Assembly: GCF_022436675.1 (NCBI RefSeq)
Contig: NZ_JAKUJZ010000003.1
Coordinates: 260,226 to 324,225, forward strand
Source: Rheinheimera hassiensis
GTDB taxonomy: Bacteria > Pseudomonadota > Gammaproteobacteria > Enterobacterales > Alteromonadaceae
Direction: 5' to 3'
DNA length: 64,000 nucleotides
Positions within the stretch are counted from its first letter, which is position 1. Each line of letters begins with the position of its first letter. Position numbers and translations under genes: made by a program. Under the pieces are notes generated by a model, which was given only the letters and a program-made list of their open reading frames with translations, searched no databases and was not told the DNA's origin. Shown here piece after piece: positions 8,545 to 35,329 of this stretch.

Positions 8545-9555
8545 ATGAAGTTATGGCTGCTACCACTGCTGCTGATTAGCCTTATTGCCTGCTCAGACAA
8601 TAACGGTACGAAAGCACTGCAAAACTACCAGCAACGTCTAAAAAGAGTGCTGGATATATCACAGAAAGATACCGCACTACCCGACGCTGCGCCCCTGGCA
8701 GCACAACGTGATTTAAAACAACCGCTGCCGGATTTACGGCTTGATCTTACCGATGCCTATGCTACACGTCGCTGCAGCCTGGATACCTTAATTGGTGAAC
8801 GTAATAGCAGTCTGGGCAAAGTATACAGTGCCAGCAAACAGCTAAGTTATGAGCTACGTTTTTTAAGCCAATTGCAACGCTGTCTGGAGCAAAGCTGGGA
8901 CGACACAACACTGCTAAACCAATTACAGCAGGTGTATCAGCAAAAACAGCTCAGCATTGATATTGCCTTTAATAATATGCTGTTAACCGATGATACGCTG
9001 CGCAAAGAACTGCTGGGTAAACGCGAAGCTCTGCCGCTAAAAGCAGCGCCCGGTTTTAGCGAAACCTGGCAAGCTTTAACCGAACTTAACCAGCTGCAGC
9101 AGTTTATAGCGCAGCAAAACTGGCAGGCTGCCAGTCAGATTGATATTGAACAACAACTGCAGCTGCTGTATCGCTATAACTTTATTGGCCGGCTGCAATA
9201 CAGCTTACGTACCGCCAGCCATCAGTTGGCACAGCTTAACCAACTCACCGAAGCCGTTGCGCCAACAGCGCTGTGCCCGCAGCAACGCGACAGCGAGCAG
9301 CTACAGATACTTGCTAATATATTTAGCAAATATTTTGTCACTGAAGTACAGCTGTACACCAGCGAGCTAAGCCGCTATCAGCAGCAGTTGTGGCCTTTAT
9401 TGCAACAGCTGTATCACGATACCGAGCTTAACACCCCGCTCACATTACGCTTTGAAACAACCTATCTGGATATGCGCACCAAGCTAAGCAGTCATGTAAA
9501 GTGGTGGCAAGCACTGAACCGCCAATGCCCACTTAACTTAACCGCACAGCAGTAA
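8545..9555 (+). CDS. DUF3080 family lipoprotein
   Basis: A 336-residue protein of unknown function. The N terminus MKLWLLPLLLISLIACSDN is a lipoprotein signal with lipobox LIAC, predicting an outer- or inner-membrane anchored periplasmic protein. The body is rich in Gln and Leu and is predicted to be helical, which with RRCSLDTLIGERNSSLGKV near residue 73 suits the DUF3080 family. The last 35 or so codons and the bases after the stop recur in decayed form at 15145-15267, beyond the pectin module. Confidence 0.82.
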   Translation: MKLWLLPLLLISLIACSDNNGTKALQNYQQRLKRVLDISQKDTALPDAAPLAAQRDLKQPLPDLRLDLTDAYATRRCSLDTLIGERNSSLGKVYSASKQLSYELRFLSQLQRCLEQSWDDTTLLNQLQQVYQQKQLSIDIAFNNMLLTDDTLRKELLGKREALPLKAAPGFSETWQALTELNQLQQFIAQQNWQAASQIDIEQQLQLLYRYNFIGRLQYSLRTASHQLAQLNQLTEAVAPTALCPQQRDSEQLQILANIFSKYFVTEVQLYTSELSRYQQQLWPLLQQLYHDTELNTPLTLRFETTYLDMRTKLSSHVKWWQALNRQCPLNLTAQQ

Positions 9556-9578
9556 AGCGCTAATACAAAAGAAATACA

Positions 9579-9618
9579 GGTATTGCCACAAATGTCAGAG
9601 CAGCAATACCTAATTTTT
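9579..9618 (+). terminator. rho-independent terminator after DUF3080
   Basis: GGTATTGC (9579-9586) pairs with GCAATACC (9603-9610) around a 16-base loop and is followed by TAATTTTTA. It sits 23 bases after the DUF3080 stop and at the 3' end of the convergent pectinesterase gene. The stem is only 8 pairs and the loop is long, so its strength is uncertain. Confidence 0.6.
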
Positions 9619-12139
9619 ATTTGCTATTTAGCAGTGCATAGTCGAAATCTGGCCAATAACGCTGCAAAATGGCCCGGCTATTTTTAAACGGCAACTCTTC
9701 TGCCGTAAGCACCCTGCCATACTTACGCCCGGTAAAATCCAATGGTTTGCCCTGCAAATCAACAGAACCATATTCACGCCAACCGGCATTGACTCCCGGC
9801 ATAACGGGGTTAGCCAGTGGTTCGTGGTTTACAGGCCCAGCCCAACCTTGTGCACCAATGTGGTTGTCCAGTTGATTATTTAGCATCAGTACGTTGTCCA
9901 CATACATTTCACGACCGGCACTTCTGGCAATAAAGGTACTGCCAGGGCGGATGCGGTTTCCAGTTGGCCCTGCGGCACTGGTAAAACGGTTATTAATAAA
10001 AATAAAACCAGGAGCATCCTCACTGATGGTGCGGGCCTGCAGTATATAGCTGCCTTCTGCGTACTCTGAGCCAGGGTTTTTAACAGAATTGCCAACAGAG
10101 CGGATTTCGTTCTGCTCAAACAGGCTTAGGTAGTTTTGTCCCCAAATAAAGTCTACATTGCCGGCAATAAGGCAGCGGTAAAAATACGACAAACCTTTTA
10201 ACATCAACGTATCTTGCTCGCTGACAAACACGCTGTCGGTCACAATCAGCTTACCATTGCTGTTAAAATACAATGTCTCTGCCTGATTACGCACACCTTC
10301 GCGCCGTTGGTGCAGGTTTTTAATACTCAGTTGCTTAAGTACTAACTGTGCCACATCTTCAACCATAAATACGCTGCGCCCACCGGCACTATGCCCGGCC
10401 ACAATATTAAACCCAAGGCCCAGCCCGCTATTTAGTGAGTCGTAATTAGTAAATTCAATGTGTGACTGCGAAGCACCTGCACCTTCGATGGTTAGGTTTT
10501 TAACCCCGTATAGATACAAAGGCTCATGATACACCCCCGCGGCGAGTTTAATTTTTTCTACCTTGTCGCCATCAGCCGCACTCATAACAAAATCCAATGC
10601 GCCCTGCAAAGTATTAAAGTCGGCTGAACCATCAGCCGCTACGTGCATTACGGCGTTGGCCGCCGGTGCCGGCTTTACCGAAAAGCGCCAGTCGGCATCG
10701 GCTCCTACCCCCAAAAACGGCGCCGTATCGTTATGATAACTAACTAAACCGGCCGACACCCGCACCTGATACTGTTTACCCGGTTCCAGCTTGCCACTGT
10801 GTGGTTTGATCAGCAGTGTATTGCCGCTGCTCCAAATCAGGCGGCGGTTTAAAGAACGGTATTTATTGTCGCGCAGGCTGCCAAAAGCATCTATTTCCGG
10901 CCCGGCCTTAATTTCATCTACCAGCGCGGTAGGCTTGCCATTTTCTAGCTGATAAATCCTCACGGCGCCGTTATCGGCCAGATTAATATCCTGCTCAAAT
11001 GTCAGCCGTAATAAAGTATCGGCCGACACGCGGCTGTTACGCGGCGGATAGGCAGAATCAAGTAGAGTTGCAGCGGTTTTAGCCGGAAACTGCAACGCCG
11101 GCAGCACCCTGATATGCAGTTGTTTAAAAATATGCGGCTGACTTTTACTTTGCAGTAGCACACTGCCCTGCCCTGGCTGCAAATACTGCAGGATAAAACT
11201 GCCATTCTGTGGTAACAGCTTTACGACGCTGGGGCTGAGGTTTTTTAGTACTATATCCTGCGCTGCACCGCCAGATACCTGCCATTGGACAGGCTGGCTT
11301 TGCTCATGCTGATAACCAACCAAGGGCTGATTTTCATGTTGCTGTAAATCGATATGTGGTGTGGTTAGCTCACCGTTGCCCACCTGCAGATAATCCAGTT
11401 CAAAAGATCGGTTGTAGCTCCAGATACCAGGCTGCTGCAAGCGCGTATCGCCAATGCTGTCATCGCTGAGCAGTAACTCACTGTTCAAATAAACCTTTAG
11501 CATGCCACCGCGCCGCTCCAGCCGCAGCAAATACCATTGCCCATCTACATCATCCTGAGCCCCCAGCACAATGGGTAACGCCTTTTCAGCTAATACCTGT
11601 ACCTTGTTGTCCTGCACAATGCCAAGCTCAAGTTTTGATGTATAAACACTGCTACCCACTTTTAAACCTGCGGCATAATAGCGATCGCTGTTGCTGTCTT
11701 TTAGCGTCAGGTAAAGCGTTTCTCTGTCAGTGGTGCTATTGGCATAAGGGCGCAGCAGAACTTCATAGAAAAAGTCATTCATGTCAACGTTATGCAGTGC
11801 TTTGGCATCCACCTGAAGCAAATGCCCACCAATACGCCCGGCCTTAAATTGTAAACTGTGCCGCTGCGAATGCACGGTCAGCTTTCCGTTTGGCTGCCCG
11901 GCCGGAGCGTCAGTTGCGCTGAAAAATGTCAGGCCGGTGGCTAGTTGCTCAAATGACTGGCAATAACCAGTGCTGCCCTGCTGACATTTATAGTCAGGAT
12001 ATTTATAGTCAGAATAGTGCTGCAGATTTTGTGGTTGCTCTGCACCAACAACAAAGCTACAGCACTGCGCCAGGAAAAAAAATACTAGCAATAGCCTATG
12101 TCGCGGTAATACATTTAAGCGAGACGGTTGCTCAGCCAT
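9617..12139 (-). CDS. secreted multidomain pectinesterase (CE8)
   Basis: An 840-residue exported protein. An N-terminal hydrophobic signal (RLLLVFFFLAQCCSFVVGA) is followed by a concanavalin/LamG-like region (about 45-265), a beta-sandwich region with an SbsA-like Ig segment (about 365-495), and a C-terminal pectin methylesterase beta-helix (about 510-835). Catalytic signatures are QAETLYF, SEQDTLMLKG and GNVDFIWG, which supply the Gln and two Asp residues; an Arg appears in ILQARTIS. It would remove methyl esters from pectin. ATG at 12139 with GGAGG in front is preferred over the start 7 codons upstream. It lies downstream of a TonB receptor on the same strand. Nearly all well-studied pectinesterases are smaller, so the N-terminal half probably binds carbohydrate. 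Confidence 0.9.
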   Translation of the reverse strand: MAEQPSRLNVLPRHRLLLVFFFLAQCCSFVVGAEQPQNLQHYSDYKYPDYKCQQGSTGYCQSFEQLATGLTFFSATDAPAGQPNGKLTVHSQRHSLQFKAGRIGGHLLQVDAKALHNVDMNDFFYEVLLRPYANSTTDRETLYLTLKDSNSDRYYAAGLKVGSSVYTSKLELGIVQDNKVQVLAEKALPIVLGAQDDVDGQWYLLRLERRGGMLKVYLNSELLLSDDSIGDTRLQQPGIWSYNRSFELDYLQVGNGELTTPHIDLQQHENQPLVGYQHEQSQPVQWQVSGGAAQDIVLKNLSPSVVKLLPQNGSFILQYLQPGQGSVLLQSKSQPHIFKQLHIRVLPALQFPAKTAATLLDSAYPPRNSRVSADTLLRLTFEQDINLADNGAVRIYQLENGKPTALVDEIKAGPEIDAFGSLRDNKYRSLNRRLIWSSGNTLLIKPHSGKLEPGKQYQVRVSAGLVSYHNDTAPFLGVGADADWRFSVKPAPAANAVMHVAADGSADFNTLQGALDFVMSAADGDKVEKIKLAAGVYHEPLYLYGVKNLTIEGAGASQSHIEFTNYDSLNSGLGLGFNIVAGHSAGGRSVFMVEDVAQLVLKQLSIKNLHQRREGVRNQAETLYFNSNGKLIVTDSVFVSEQDTLMLKGLSYFYRCLIAGNVDFIWGQNYLSLFEQNEIRSVGNSVKNPGSEYAEGSYILQARTISEDAPGFIFINNRFTSAAGPTGNRIRPGSTFIARSAGREMYVDNVLMLNNQLDNHIGAQGWAGPVNHEPLANPVMPGVNAGWREYGSVDLQGKPLDFTGRKYGRVLTAEELPFKNSRAILQRYWPDFDYALLNSK

Positions 12140-12195
12140 TGAACCTCCATTTAATAACAATAAGATTTGTTATGATTTTTCTAACATTAAAAGTG

Positions 12196-12221
12196 AACAG
12201 AGCTACCTTTGCAGCTCTGTT
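12196..12221 (-). terminator. hairpin between TonB receptor and pectinesterase
   Basis: AACAGAGCT (12196-12204) and AGCTCTGTT (12213-12221) form a perfect 9-pair stem with an 8-base loop, directly after the receptor stop codon. On the minus strand the stem is followed by CACTTTT rather than a clean T run. It may be a partial terminator that sets receptor mRNA above pectinesterase mRNA, or an mRNA-stabilising stem. Confidence 0.5.
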
Positions 12222-12252
12222 TAATTTCACTGCCTTAACAACAGGGGTAGCC

Positions 12253-14958
12253 TTAAAATGTGTAACGTGCTCCGAAGAAGAAATTGCGGCCGGTGTGGTT
12301 GTACTCGCGGGTTAAATCCATTGTGCCATCACCGTTACCATAAATACGCTCGTGCTCATCGGTCAGGTTGATCACTTCAAACGTCAATGTTAGATTTTCA
12401 GTAACGTTATAAAATGATGAGAAATCAATGTGCGTTGGGCCATATTTCATTTCTGCTAAATGGCCGTTGCCGCCAGGCACACTGAGTATATAGTCGTCAC
12501 GCATATTTGCTGACAGCCGCAAACCAAACGCATCCTGCTCGTAATAAACGGTAAAGTTATACGAGTTTTCCGATAAGCCGGTCATATCTTCAGCAGTTAC
12601 CCGGGTGTAATTGGTTACAACACCCAAGTTTGACAACCAACCGGGTAAAAAGCTAAACGGCTGCTGATACACCAGCTCATAGCCCTTAATGACAAAGCCG
12701 TCATCAGTGTTCACCGGAATATAATGGGTGTAAGGTACAGTTTGTGGGTCAGAATTATAAGTAGGGCTATACCGCGGATCAGCATAAATAGCGTCGTAGT
12801 AGGCCGGGTCTATCAGCTTTTCTACTATATCTGTTGTCAGCGACGACACCACATCTTTGCGAAACACAGTCGCGGATAACAGAGCTTCTTCGGCGAAGTA
12901 CCATTCAACACCTAAATCAAGATCATTTGATTTGTAGGGGGCTAAATCCGGGTTGCCCATACTCACCGTGCGGGTTTCATAGGTAAAATTTGGATTAGCA
13001 ATATTCAGCGAGTTTAAGCCAGCCCGCGTCATAGTGCGTGCGGCTGCAAAACGCACCAGCACATCGTCGGTAACTTCCAGCGCCAGATTCATTGACGGCA
13101 GAAAGTTGCTGTAATCATTTTTAACTTCTACTTCACTACCGTTCAAATAGCCGGTTGATGTTGTATCTGTTCTCACATAGCGTGCACCAAAATTAGTACG
13201 CAGTACCATTTGCGCAATATCAAAGCTAGCAGTAGCTTCGCCATAAGCAGCATAGGTTTTTTCGCCAACTATCCAGGCTGCACCTAGGTTGTCGGTATAT
13301 TGATGGCTTAACAGATCGCGGTTAGCCGCGCCAAACTCCACGACAGGAAATGGCAGCAGATCACCGTCCAGTCCCTTGCCAAAATCTGAATAGGGGAAGT
13401 CTTCAAAGTAGCCCACTGCAGAAACAGGGGTAAAATAATCACCATTGCCGCTGCGATATTCAACACTGCGATCGTTGTAAGCCACGCCGGTTTTAAGCTG
13501 AAATGCGGCAAATTCGTAAGTTAAATCAAGACGTGATGTCAGGTTCTCCCGGTTAACATCATGCGAGGTAATAGACGCAGGCCTGATTTCATAGTTCGCT
13601 GGGTCATAGTAGTTATAGCCTGAGCCAAAAGATACCGTCGGCACATTAGCATTGGCAGAGAAATCAAAGGAGTATATGTGCGGTACCGACACACTGTAGA
13701 GGCGATTCTCCTCCCGGTGGGCATCCGACGTTGCCGATCCCACCATTGCGTCTACCGTCATATTGTCGGTTAAACGGAATTTACCGGATAGAACAAACTG
13801 ACTAAAATTAGTGTCAGAGTCTTGCTGCCGGCTTTCAATCCAGGATTCAACATTGTCAAAGCTACCGGCAATAACTTGCTTGCCGTCCGGCGATATGGTC
13901 AACGCCAGTGGTGTAATGCTACCTGGCGTTAAAAACCATTCCATTGAGTTATAGCTGGTGCGTTGGTTCTCCAGTTTCGAGTGCAGCGCATCAAATGTAA
14001 TAAGCACATCACTGGATGGCCGGTACTGCAGTGCAGCTGTCATACCAACCCGCTTTTGTTCATTGCCAAAAAAGTCGGCTCTGGGCAAGCGTGGTAACCA
14101 TAAACAGTTAATTGCCGCCACTGAATTGTCTCCAATCTGACAATCACTTACCGCAGGGGTACCAGTGATCTCAGGTGTGGCAGATGCCGGAAAAGGCTGG
14201 TTAGCTAACTGAGGTGTAGTCCACCTTACCGTTCCAAAACCTTCCTGGCGCACTGTGCGCTCTGATGCCGCCACGGAAAACAGTGCACCCAACGTGTTAT
14301 CTGCAAAGGTATTACTTAGCATTAATGCCACCCGGGGATCATGCTCGCTGCTCAGAGAGTTATAGCCATCCTGCACAGACACCAGCGCTTTAAAACCATC
14401 GTAATCGAATGGTTTTGCAGAGTATAAGTCAACAGTACCGGCCATACCGCCTTCTTCAATTGAAGCCCGGCTGGTTTTTTGAATATCAACGCGGTTAAAT
14501 AATTCCGAAGCAAAAATATTGAAATCGAACGAGCGGCCGCTGTTAATACCACCACCGGAATCTAAACCATCGGTACTGGCGGGTACTTCCATGCCATTTA
14601 ATGTAGCCCGGGTAAAAGACGGGCCTAAACCACGCAGCGTAATTTGCCGCCCTTCACCGCCTTCGCGCGAAATAGCCACCCCCGGCACACGCTGAATAGC
14701 CTCTGCAATATTCAAATCTGGAAACTTGCCCATGTCTTCGGCCAAAATAGATTCTCTGGCGTTAACAGCATTACGTTTTTCGTCCAGCGCCTCATAAAGC
14801 GCCCCCCGAAACCCGCTTACCTGAATAACCTCAATGTCAGTACTTTCTGCGTCAGCTGTGTCAACGGCTTGCTGCGCCATAACAGGCAAAGCAGCAAAGG
14901 TACCCGCCGCTAACATACAGACAACAATTTTTTTTAACCGCAAGTGTTTTACACTCAT
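12253..14958 (-). CDS. TonB-dependent receptor of carbohydrate-uptake type
   Basis: A 901-residue outer-membrane protein. A signal peptide (to about residue 28, PVMAQQ) is followed by the TonB box region IEVIQVSGFRG, a plug domain with IQRVPGVAISREGGEG, ITLRGLGPSF and LNGMEVPAS, and a C-terminal 22-stranded barrel ending NFFFGARYTF with terminal Phe. This plug type (RGLGPSFTRATLNGMEV) is common in receptors of polysaccharide-utilisation loci. With the pectinesterase immediately downstream, pectin-derived oligogalacturonides are the likely substrate; that is inference. Two palindromic sites lie 45-90 bases upstream of the start. Confidence 0.92.
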   Translation of the reverse strand: MSVKHLRLKKIVVCMLAAGTFAALPVMAQQAVDTADAESTDIEVIQVSGFRGALYEALDEKRNAVNARESILAEDMGKFPDLNIAEAIQRVPGVAISREGGEGRQITLRGLGPSFTRATLNGMEVPASTDGLDSGGGINSGRSFDFNIFASELFNRVDIQKTSRASIEEGGMAGTVDLYSAKPFDYDGFKALVSVQDGYNSLSSEHDPRVALMLSNTFADNTLGALFSVAASERTVRQEGFGTVRWTTPQLANQPFPASATPEITGTPAVSDCQIGDNSVAAINCLWLPRLPRADFFGNEQKRVGMTAALQYRPSSDVLITFDALHSKLENQRTSYNSMEWFLTPGSITPLALTISPDGKQVIAGSFDNVESWIESRQQDSDTNFSQFVLSGKFRLTDNMTVDAMVGSATSDAHREENRLYSVSVPHIYSFDFSANANVPTVSFGSGYNYYDPANYEIRPASITSHDVNRENLTSRLDLTYEFAAFQLKTGVAYNDRSVEYRSGNGDYFTPVSAVGYFEDFPYSDFGKGLDGDLLPFPVVEFGAANRDLLSHQYTDNLGAAWIVGEKTYAAYGEATASFDIAQMVLRTNFGARYVRTDTTSTGYLNGSEVEVKNDYSNFLPSMNLALEVTDDVLVRFAAARTMTRAGLNSLNIANPNFTYETRTVSMGNPDLAPYKSNDLDLGVEWYFAEEALLSATVFRKDVVSSLTTDIVEKLIDPAYYDAIYADPRYSPTYNSDPQTVPYTHYIPVNTDDGFVIKGYELVYQQPFSFLPGWLSNLGVVTNYTRVTAEDMTGLSENSYNFTVYYEQDAFGLRLSANMRDDYILSVPGGNGHLAEMKYGPTHIDFSSFYNVTENLTLTFEVINLTDEHERIYGNGDGTMDLTREYNHTGRNFFFGARYTF

Positions 14959-15002
14959 TACATCACCCCCTGTTAATTTTTATCTTGGGCACTTCCCCAA
15001 AA

Positions 15003-15047
15003 TGCCACCGGTGGCAAAGGCAAGATAGATTACCGCCACCGGTGGCA
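15003..15047. promoter_or_regulatory. two palindromic operator-like sites upstream of the pectin TonB receptor
   Basis: TGCCACCGGTGGCA (15003-15016) is a perfect 14-base palindrome. CGCCACCGGTGGCA (15034-15047) differs at one outer base. The dyad centres are 31 bases apart, close to three helical turns, so two bound dimers would face the same side of DNA. An even palindrome with central CG is the usual shape of LacI/GalR-family operators. No LacI-family gene is in the window, so the regulator would be encoded elsewhere. The sites lie before the TonB receptor start at 14958 and probably control the whole pectin module. Confidence 0.75.
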
Positions 15048-15144
15048 AAGTTATAGACTAACTAAATTATCAGGTCAACATTTAAACAAATAGCCGGCTA
15101 ACTATTTTTTAGTTTATAGCTTTGCTGATACAGCTGGCACCATT

Positions 15145-15267
15145 TTACGCTTTGAGCCAGGTTATCTTGACATGCCCCCCCCCCCCCTACTAAGCCGCAA
15201 AGTAATGGCAAGCACTTAACAGCCAATGCCCGGTTAAACTTACCGCCCAGCAGTAAGCCGCTAATAC
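15145..15267 (+). pseudogene. decayed second copy of the DUF3080 3' end
   Basis: This stretch aligns in the same orientation with 9445-9566, the last codons of the intact DUF3080 gene plus the bases after its stop. Shared landmarks in order are TTACGCTTTGA, the codons for YLDM, GGCAAGCACT, GCCAATGCCC, CAGCAGTAA and GCTAATAC. The copy has a run of 13 C (15175-15187) in place of coding sequence and a premature stop, so it cannot make the protein. It lies at the far end of the pectin module, just before tRNA-Val. Confidence 0.8.
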
Positions 15268-15386
15268 GGTGAAAAATACACCAAACACACTGCCTTAGCA
15301 GAAAAACACTTGCCATTGCCCCAACAGCGCAATAACATAGCCGCCGTTGTCTGCCAAGCTACGCGCTGGCTTACAACAAAAAGTGT

Positions 15387-15463
15387 GCGTCCTTAGCTCA
15401 GCTGGTTAGAGCACTACCTTGACATGGTAGGGGTCGGTGGTTCGAGTCCACTAGGACGCACCA
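15387..15463 (+). tRNA. tRNA-Val (anticodon GAC)
   Basis: A 77-base cloverleaf including an encoded CCA end. The acceptor stem GCGTCCT pairs with AGGACGC, the D arm contains AGCTCAGCTGGTTAGAGC, the anticodon stem CTACC/GGTAG encloses TTGACAT with anticodon GAC, and the T arm is GGTTCGAGTCC. It reads the valine codons GUC and GUU and closely resembles E. coli tRNA-Val(GAC). A bidirectional terminator follows. Confidence 0.98.
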
Positions 15464-33964: not shown

Positions 33965-34051
33965 TTCAGACCTCTGCGCGTCAGTAACCGGCAGCGCTTG
34001 CTGATCCTGCGCAATGCTATCCCACAAATCTTCAACCAATTGCACACGTCG
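33965..34051 (-). pseudogene. truncated addiction-module antitoxin remnant
   Basis: Minus-strand codons read VQLVEDLWDSIAQDQQALPV followed by TDAQRSE. This is the hallmark of the small stabilising antitoxins of the Unstab_antitox (PF09720) family, which normally start about 20 residues earlier and continue past a conserved EQRAELDRRL. Here a stop (TAG) lies just upstream and the C terminus is lost after QRSE, so no antitoxin is made. No matching RelE-type toxin follows. The remnant abuts the argO fragment at 34069. Confidence 0.7.
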
Positions 34052-34068
34052 CTACAACTGTACATCAC

Positions 34069-34145
34069 GCAGCGCCAGGTTAAGCGCGATGGCGCCATCA
34101 AACAGCTGCCAGCGTTTGGCTGGGTTAAGCCAGATTTTCAGCTTT
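34069..34145 (-). pseudogene. second, partial copy of the argO 3' end
   Basis: This segment aligns with 34739-34834, inside the last third of the intact argO, in the same orientation. Shared landmarks are GCGCCAGGTTAA, GGCGCCATCAAACA, CTGCCAGCGTTTGGC and GTTAAGCCAGATTTTCAGC. It differs by about four substitutions and lacks 21 bases (CGAT to CGAT) that the intact gene has. It is not an expressed gene. The VOC gene lies between the two copies. Confidence 0.8.
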
Positions 34146-34213
34146 AGCGGCCAACAGGCAAATAGTAGCCTGCAATGAGTGGAAAAAAATCAGGCGCTGG
34201 ACAAAGAAATCCG

Positions 34214-34618
34214 CTAATCCGCAATTTCGTCATAACCCGCGCCAAGAAATTGCACAAAGCAGAAGCCGTGGCCAAAGGGGTCTGCCATTGGTGCCAACTT
34301 GCCCCAGTTTTGCGTTACGATTGGTTTCTCCAGCCGGGCGCCGGCATCAACCGCTTGCTCAACACTGGCTTCAATGTCTTCTACCACGAAGTCCAGATGC
34401 ACCGGTGTCCAATGTCGCTGGTAGTCCCGCAGTTGTGGCAATGTATCTACCGCGGCTGTGCCGGCGGCTTTGACCAGTAAATAAATGGGCGCCGAACTGC
34501 CAAGCATTTCTATGCCAAAACTGCCGAAGCGACGGCCAATGCGCAGGTCGAATGCCGCAATATAGAAACGCTCTGCACGCTCAAGATCATCAACATCGAT
34601 GTTTACCAGCATATTCAT
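34214..34618 (-). CDS. VOC superfamily protein (glyoxalase/bleomycin-resistance fold)
   Basis: A 134-residue protein with the paired beta-alpha-beta-beta-beta fold. It begins MNMLVNIDVDDLERAERFYI, has HLDFVVEDIEASVEQAVDAG mid-protein and ends with DPFGHGFCFVQFLG, the usual metal-binding positions being His and the Glu of IEMLG. Function could be a small dioxygenase, isomerase or drug-binding protein. It is flanked by the argO gene upstream and the degraded argO copy downstream, as if inserted there. Confidence 0.9.
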   Translation of the reverse strand: MNMLVNIDVDDLERAERFYIAAFDLRIGRRFGSFGIEMLGSSAPIYLLVKAAGTAAVDTLPQLRDYQRHWTPVHLDFVVEDIEASVEQAVDAGARLEKPIVTQNWGKLAPMADPFGHGFCFVQFLGAGYDEIAD

Positions 34619-34732: not shown

Positions 34733-35329
34733 TCACTGCAGCGCCAGGTTAAACGCGATACCACCAAGCACAATGGCGATGGCGCCATCAAACAACTGCC
34801 AGCGTTTGGCCGAGTTAAGCCAGATTTTCAGCTTTGGAGCCAAAGCTGTCAGCGAGGAAAACCACACTAATGAAGCGATACAGGCGCCGGCCATAAACCA
34901 CAGTGGTGCCGCTTGCTGGTTTGCCACCCCGCCGATTAAAAATACCGTGTCCAGATACACATGCGGGTTTAATAACGTAATGGCCAGTGCCGTTAGCGCG
35001 GTTTTGCTGCTGCTCATTAACTGAGTGCCGGTATCGGTTTGCAAGCCTTTGCCACCGGCCCATGCGCGACTGCCCGCCTGCCATGCCAACCACAACAGCA
35101 ACGCTACACCCAGCCAAGTAAGCAGCGGCACCAGCGGCGGTACCAGTTGCTGCATTTGCTGCACGGCAAATACGCCGAGCACAATCAGCAGGCAATCACA
35201 GACAATACATACTGCGGCGATTACCAGCCGGTTTGCCCCGGCCATGCTTTGGCTGAGTACCCAGATATTTTGCGCGCCAATGGCGACAATTAAACTTAAC
35301 CCTACACCAAACCCTAATAAAAACGTCAT
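34733..35329 (-). CDS. argO: LysE/ArgO family amino acid exporter
   Basis: A 198-residue inner-membrane protein with six hydrophobic segments: N-terminal LLGFGVGLSLIVAIGAQNIW is diagnostic, with NPHVYLDTVFLIGGV in the fifth segment. Family members export arginine or lysine. It is divergent from a LysR gene with ArgP features, which is the classical argO/argP arrangement; ArgP activates argO when arginine is high. The last part of the gene is duplicated in degraded form at 34069-34145. Confidence 0.92.
   Translation of the reverse strand: MTFLLGFGVGLSLIVAIGAQNIWVLSQSMAGANRLVIAAVCIVCDCLLIVLGVFAVQQMQQLVPPLVPLLTWLGVALLLWLAWQAGSRAWAGGKGLQTDTGTQLMSSSKTALTALAITLLNPHVYLDTVFLIGGVANQQAAPLWFMAGACIASLVWFSSLTALAPKLKIWLNSAKRWQLFDGAIAIVLGGIAFNLALQ

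Follow-up and report, generated by a model that had tools for sequence, protein, structure and literature searches.

How did a pectinesterase gene and a TonB-dependent receptor gene come to lie between an intact DUF3080 gene and a second copy of that gene's 3′ end? The question is raised by a 64,000-nucleotide stretch of Rheinheimera hassiensis DNA (contig NZ_JAKUJZ010000003.1, positions 260,226 to 324,225 of the forward strand), which is referred to here as the window and whose own numbering is used below. The answer we favor, with a probability of roughly 0.6, is that the two genes came in on DNA that already carried a foreign DUF3080 tail, that this DNA recombined into the gene, and that the old tail was thereby moved toward the neighboring tRNA-Val gene. 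The DUF3080 gene (8545 to 9555, plus strand; 336 amino acids; PF11279, 2.7e-66) is intact, and a single match to it was found in each of the 31 genus genomes compared, namely, the window's own genome and 30 same-genus relatives with DUF3080 (numbered with a G below).

A repeat search of the window revealed a direct repeat on the same strand at 9445 to 9566 (near copy) and 15145 to 15267 (far copy), the copies lying 5.7 kb apart, and this pair was one of two direct-repeat families of at least 45 nt at the settings used. The search returned two segments, 9498 to 9566 with 15199 to 15267 (69 nt, 83%) and 9445 to 9480 with 15145 to 15180 (36 nt, 75%), and a single local alignment joined both, with 93 of 126 columns identical and 7 gap columns. 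The alignment score was 82, compared with a maximum of 32 among 1,000 dinucleotide-preserving shuffles. An earlier reading made from the letters alone (the sequence-only reading) had claimed this recurrence in the same orientation, and the identity was well above the random level. The near copy consists of the last 111 nt of DUF3080 and 11 nt beyond the stop codon, and both parts are matched in the far copy, which contains a run of 13 C residues and small indels; the claim that the far copy is decayed yet keeps matches past the stop was thus borne out as well. At the C run (15176 to 15188) the relatives have mixed sequence, and the run may reflect either slippage or a sequencing artefact.

Between the copies lie a pectinesterase gene (9617 to 12160, start codon uncertain; PF01095, 2e-12) and a TonB-dependent receptor gene (12253 to 14958; PF00593 and PF07715), both on the minus strand and ~90 to 100 bp apart. 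In agreement with the sequence-only reading, this pair is all that the interval holds, being the sole coherent reading among open reading frames (ORFs) of at least 90 amino acids, and a Pfam search of those ORFs revealed no integrase gene between the copies. The two genes probably form one operon, the receptor likely being the first gene of the pair.

Comparison with the relatives revealed the empty site. In 20 of the 30, a single DUF3080 3′ end is followed by tRNA-Val 91 to 151 bp after the stop codon and the module is absent, which is the single junction predicted for strains lacking the module; the distance is 130 bp in the five closest relatives. In eight more distant relatives, ~3.1 to 3.2 kb separates DUF3080 and tRNA-Val (in G010, an example of this class, the interval is mainly a 954-amino-acid minus-strand ORF), and in the remaining two the site runs off the contig end. 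The pectin module was seen behind DUF3080 in none of the 28 resolved relatives. Nor was any relative found to carry both repeat segments without the module, in a DNA search that gave matches in 15 of the 31 genomes, own included, and is informative for the closer ones only. The tRNA-Val(GAC) gene (15387 to 15463, plus strand) does lie immediately beyond the far copy, as had been claimed, but it has no visible part in the insertion, since its 3′ end is not duplicated: its last 20 to 30 nt were found a single time across 464 kb of the contig, and tRNA-Val was therefore rejected as an attachment site. In its tRNA-Val sequence, the window agrees fully with G027, G015, G030, and G018, but 2 of 77 sites are different in the closest relatives (G024, G014, G009, G029, and G017), both changes appearing to be paired.

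The next question is which of the two tails is native. Both align throughout with the relatives' tails, and neither contains a new domain. The far copy (plus strand), followed by the DUF3080 to tRNA-Val spacer (15268 to 15386, plus strand) and tRNA-Val, is colinear with the relatives' own DUF3080 end, and its well-kept part (15211 to 15267) differs from the nearest genome, G024, at 4 of 57 sites. In contrast, the near tail (9511 to 9566) differs from G024 at 14 of 56 sites and is 21 to 25% from five relatives (G024, G014, G009, G029, and G017), which differ mutually by 7 to 16%. The far copy is thus near-native in character and appears to be the host's own tail, displaced and decaying, while the functional near tail, as the outlier, looks like a newcomer of foreign origin, a view that is supported statistically. 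The near-type tail sequence is GCCCACTTAACTTAACCGCACAGCAG. A second near-tail match of 38 nt, on a different contig in G021, was taken as chance.

These data bear on two alternatives. An old tandem DUF3080 copy, reduced to its end, with the module entering independently, would likewise leave a partial second copy; this explanation, already disfavored, is scarcely credible given the single DUF3080 match in each of the 31 genomes and a far tail that runs colinearly into the relatives' spacer and tRNA. Alternatively, the host tail could have been copied at module entry, by staggered or sister-chromosome bridging, with both copies then diverging in place. Such a true target duplication, which we regard as a clear minority possibility, would leave a functional near tail expected to be constrained, and yet it is this tail that lies further from the relatives than the dead far tail. 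An origin of both repeats from the recipient is therefore unlikely at DUF3080.

The import seems to extend further into the gene. Over its first 600 nt, DUF3080 differs from G024 by 6.2%, and from about 9243 on by ~13% (permutation p 0.0004), and we delimited the 3′ part probably imported with the module as 9243 to 9566 (plus strand; left limit approximate). Because this putative left crossover is placed upstream of position 9445 (in gene terms), where the old tail takes up again, the event could take place on a single chromosome and would require no more than one homologous anchor and one illegitimate joint. On the favored reading, the incoming DNA would have carried the pectinesterase/receptor pair already attached to the 3′ portion of a DUF3080 relative. 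Homologous recombination within DUF3080 would have swapped the gene end for the incoming one, the gene remaining whole, and the other end of the incoming DNA would have joined inside the old tail, so that ~120 bp of that tail would have ended up beyond the module, by tRNA-Val, where the stranded tail would decay. An integrase would be unnecessary, since RecA would be enough together with either one illegitimate joint or a circular intermediate; in the latter case the circle would integrate through a single crossover, as proposed for rhs genes. We infer the order of these events, as well as the route of DNA uptake and the linear or circular state of the donor DNA. ComEC and DprA were found in the genome, a permissive result only, as Escherichia coli controls score for both too. 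The sequence-only reading had the module arriving by recombination at the end of DUF3080 without any integrase; that part is supported, with the roles of the two copies reversed, the far copy apparently being native and the near tail probably the newcomer.

Several observations weigh against this reading. The near-tail divergence is based on 56 bp only, and 3 of the 14 differences are explicable as one pair of compensating 1-nt indels. The permutation test for the breakpoint takes no account of rate variation within the gene, in which the bin from 9245 to 9344 is generally fast, and seven other genome pairs also gave p < 0.01, with every break near the fast 5′ end. The far spacer (15268 to 15386) is itself 9 to 16% from six relatives, whose mutual differences average 7%. 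A DNA search of the 31 genus genomes, which gave matches in only 15 of them, turned up no donor of the near tail. The composition of the module is typical of the contig, 71 of 81 same-size contig segments being at least as deviant, and so gives no sign of a foreign module. Finally, Ku is absent from the genome, and classical end joining is thus unavailable.

A comparable arrangement was found next door. The gene upstream of DUF3080, MATE, directly precedes it in 28 of the 31 genus genomes, while G009, G014, and G002 have an island between the two genes (L092 11423 to 18275, L068 1170 to 5173, and L090 1240 to 7826, respectively). The order in each is an intact MATE, a common left end, differing cargo, a common right end, and a second copy of the MATE 3′ part, which begins near nt 860 in all three; the left end holds a further, strongly diverged MATE fragment, 56 to 66% identical to the other copies and 78 to 79% among the three genomes. 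The cargo is an RT-Toprim gene (retron type I-C) in G009, a type II DNA methyltransferase gene with two other genes in G002, and two genes without a family match in G014. MATE in G009 and G014 probably shares a common origin. In G002, whose far copy includes an N run in the assembly, the near MATE differs from its own far copy at 0 of 100, 0 of 60, and 1 of 80 sites over nt 960 to 1199, versus 13 of 80 and 27 of 80 sites (40 of 160) beyond nt 1199; past this crossover its near tail is identical to that of G014 at 173 of 179 sites. The G002 crossover is our best evidence that such an island imports its own gene tail from another species. Unlike at DUF3080, a host stretch (~nt 960 to 1199) was truly duplicated there.

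Tail copies behind other genes were sought in a head/tail scan of 1,356 ORFs of at least 130 amino acids (1.69 Mb, six genomes), counting non-paralogous direct copies within 15 kb; genes with protein coverage of at least 0.5 near the match were dropped as paralogues or remnants, and the G024 pair 303576/304584 was left out of the count. Tails were found downstream of 8 of the 1,356 genes and upstream of none, while heads were found upstream of one (an artefact) and downstream of none; the single head match was dropped, as it is a remnant of LysE that overlaps an esterase ORF (PF00756) at its start. The genes with tail copies were, in the window, DUF3080 and LysE, the latter with a glyoxalase gene as its insert; in G014, MATE, LysE (with HipBA inserted), and a MerR gene (with genes for a PF00144 serine hydrolase and an AraC regulator inserted); in G009, MATE; in G024, a glyoxalase gene (with an acetyltransferase gene inserted); and in G029, a chemoreceptor gene with serial tail copies. 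In the last of these (G029:C1:45279-53126), the copies lie at 50.3 and 53.05 kb, which looks like the successive addition of two modules. Most of the scanned sequence was not a random sample. Three of the stretches (G014:C11, G009:C29, and G024:C9) had been picked because of their synteny with the window, and in the first two MATE or LysE copies were already known at that point; the stretches not picked in this way (G017:C8, G029:C1, and G000:C33 outside the window; ~1.2 Mb) yielded one gene, and the rates are thus not for extrapolation.

Some of these pairs favor a target duplication. In the window, an intact LysE-family gene (34733 to 35329; PF01810, 4.9e-28) is followed on the minus strand by a glyoxalase-family gene (34214 to 34618; PF18029 and PF00903) and a far copy of the LysE 3′ end (34050 to 34154; 69 nt at 90% and 60 nt at 95%; internal 21-nt gap; left limit approximate). 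The two LysE copies are 95% alike over 60 nt, versus ~85 to 87% to G024 in the main alignments, and no second LysE tail was found in 7 of 8 species over the ~1.5 to 2.1 kb covered downstream. In G014, the copies are 98% alike at the MerR gene and 97.3% alike over 410 nt at MATE; at LysE or MATE in G014-like strains, the range is 88 to 97%. G002, G029, G027, and G030 match the far tail of the MerR gene and its flank in one piece, i.e., as an empty site. At LysE and the MerR gene, both repeats likely came from the recipient. True duplications (at MATE in G002 and probably at LysE and the MerR gene) would need a circle with gap repair or sister-chromosome bridging, the latter being known from pneumococcal transformation (PMC3784515). 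In the genome of the window, a different insert, ~2.7 kb long, lies behind the MerR gene (G000:C22:277080-280289).

Gene 3′ ends also serve as attachment sites; e14, for instance, uses the 3′ end of icd. The module could thus be what remains of an integrase-borne island that had the DUF3080 3′ end as its attachment site and later lost the integrase, an origin that would account for the position at a gene 3′ end and for finding the intact gene and its new tail on one side and the old tail on the other. We consider it quite unlikely, since no integrase was recognized in the examined inserts at any of these genes (the insert proteins tested gave no Pfam integrase match, and several had no family at all), the LysE far copies differ in length between two genomes, and the homology at DUF3080 spans ~120 bp with indels instead of a sharp core. 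Neither an integrase gene in the element nor a duplicated tRNA 3′ end was found at DUF3080.

As for the pair itself, pectinesterase relatives at 62 to 64% occur in three other genus genomes, at other loci, and the best receptor match in another genus genome is 41%. Receptor relatives at 56% were found in six other genomes of the order, four of which also have a pectinesterase relative, which fits a role of the pair in pectin use; two other genomes of the order have a pectinesterase relative and lack a receptor of that kind. Upstream of the receptor gene lie two operator-like GCCACCGGTGGC palindromes (15004 to 15046), two exact matches versus 0.21 expected with one mismatch allowed, and a weak match (E 0.008) lies upstream of the pectinesterase gene in Arsukibacterium tuosuense and A. 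indicum. We infer that the genus group of the window includes these two species and Rheinheimera aquimaris, whose named loci yield pectinesterase matches identical to those of genomes G026, G007, and G001. The pectinesterase loci of all three were rejected as the donor locus, a receptor relative being missing from their 8-kb flanks. A viral vector was likewise rejected (0 of 27 pattern matches in viral contigs encode a pectinesterase relative), as was a plasmid source, since neither the DUF3080 end nor the left end of the MATE island in G014 matches a plasmid record.

Precedents exist for this mechanism. In rhs genes, C-terminal tips are displaced, and a circular intermediate was proposed (Jackson et al. 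2009, PMC2935791); as we propose for DUF3080, the new gene end comes with cargo and the old end is shifted downstream, where it stays as a dead fragment. In Vibrio cholerae type VI secretion system (T6SS) clusters, displaced effector ends occur with immunity arrays, and homology-facilitated illegitimate recombination was proposed (PMC5361080), likewise with one homologous anchor, an illegitimate joint, and an old 3′ end kept downstream. DUF3080 shares with both the series of intact gene, cargo, and dead copy of the gene's own 3′ end; however, its tail carries no variable function. The rhs tail is the variable toxin part and the T6SS cargo consists of effector-immunity pairs of the same system, whereas the DUF3080 tail is an ordinary conserved gene end to which the cargo bears no relation. 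Insertion with long target duplication, described for Helicobacter pylori restriction-modification genes (Nobusato et al. 2000, as cited in PMC1643837 and PMC3154945), also places an insert between long direct target repeats without a recognized transposase, and here too such repeats flank the insert and relatives have the empty site; unlike in that case, the DUF3080 copies look to be of different origin rather than duplicated. Interchromatid integration in pneumococcal transformation (PMC3784515), in which DNA pairs at two sister-chromosome places and gives direct duplications, differs in its product, which is a large tandem duplication arising from repeated DNA and not an inserted module. 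In integrase-free hotspots (Oliveira et al. 2017, PMC5635113), which are favored in transformable species, variable modules similarly sit between conserved genes; they enter by double recombination in two flanking core genes, whereas at DUF3080 one gene gives both flanks. We found no account of tails being displaced at housekeeping genes where the cargo is unrelated, or of the DUF3080 locus, a weak negative because subscription papers were mostly outside the coverage. With housekeeping genes and unrelated cargo, the present case is a variant of a mechanism already known.

More broadly, and at somewhat less than even odds, we tentatively propose that accessory modules in this Rheinheimera-type genus move without an integrase, each carrying a host gene tail that serves as a portable homology arm, makes the gene whole again on arrival, and sends the native tail downstream. 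The 3′ ends of conserved genes (DUF3080, LysE, MATE, MerR, chemoreceptor, and glyoxalase) would be the docking sites, and the repeat pairs would permit later excision and re-docking. Integrase-free hotspots are many in bacteria, and gene entry into them has been argued mostly from statistics; here the joints are still readable, as a foreign-looking tail, an orphaned native tail, and a G002 crossover placed within tens of bases. If general, such a process would account for modules settling behind genes rather than in front of them, and looking for orphan gene tails would allow gene gains of the integrase-free kind to be dated and oriented.

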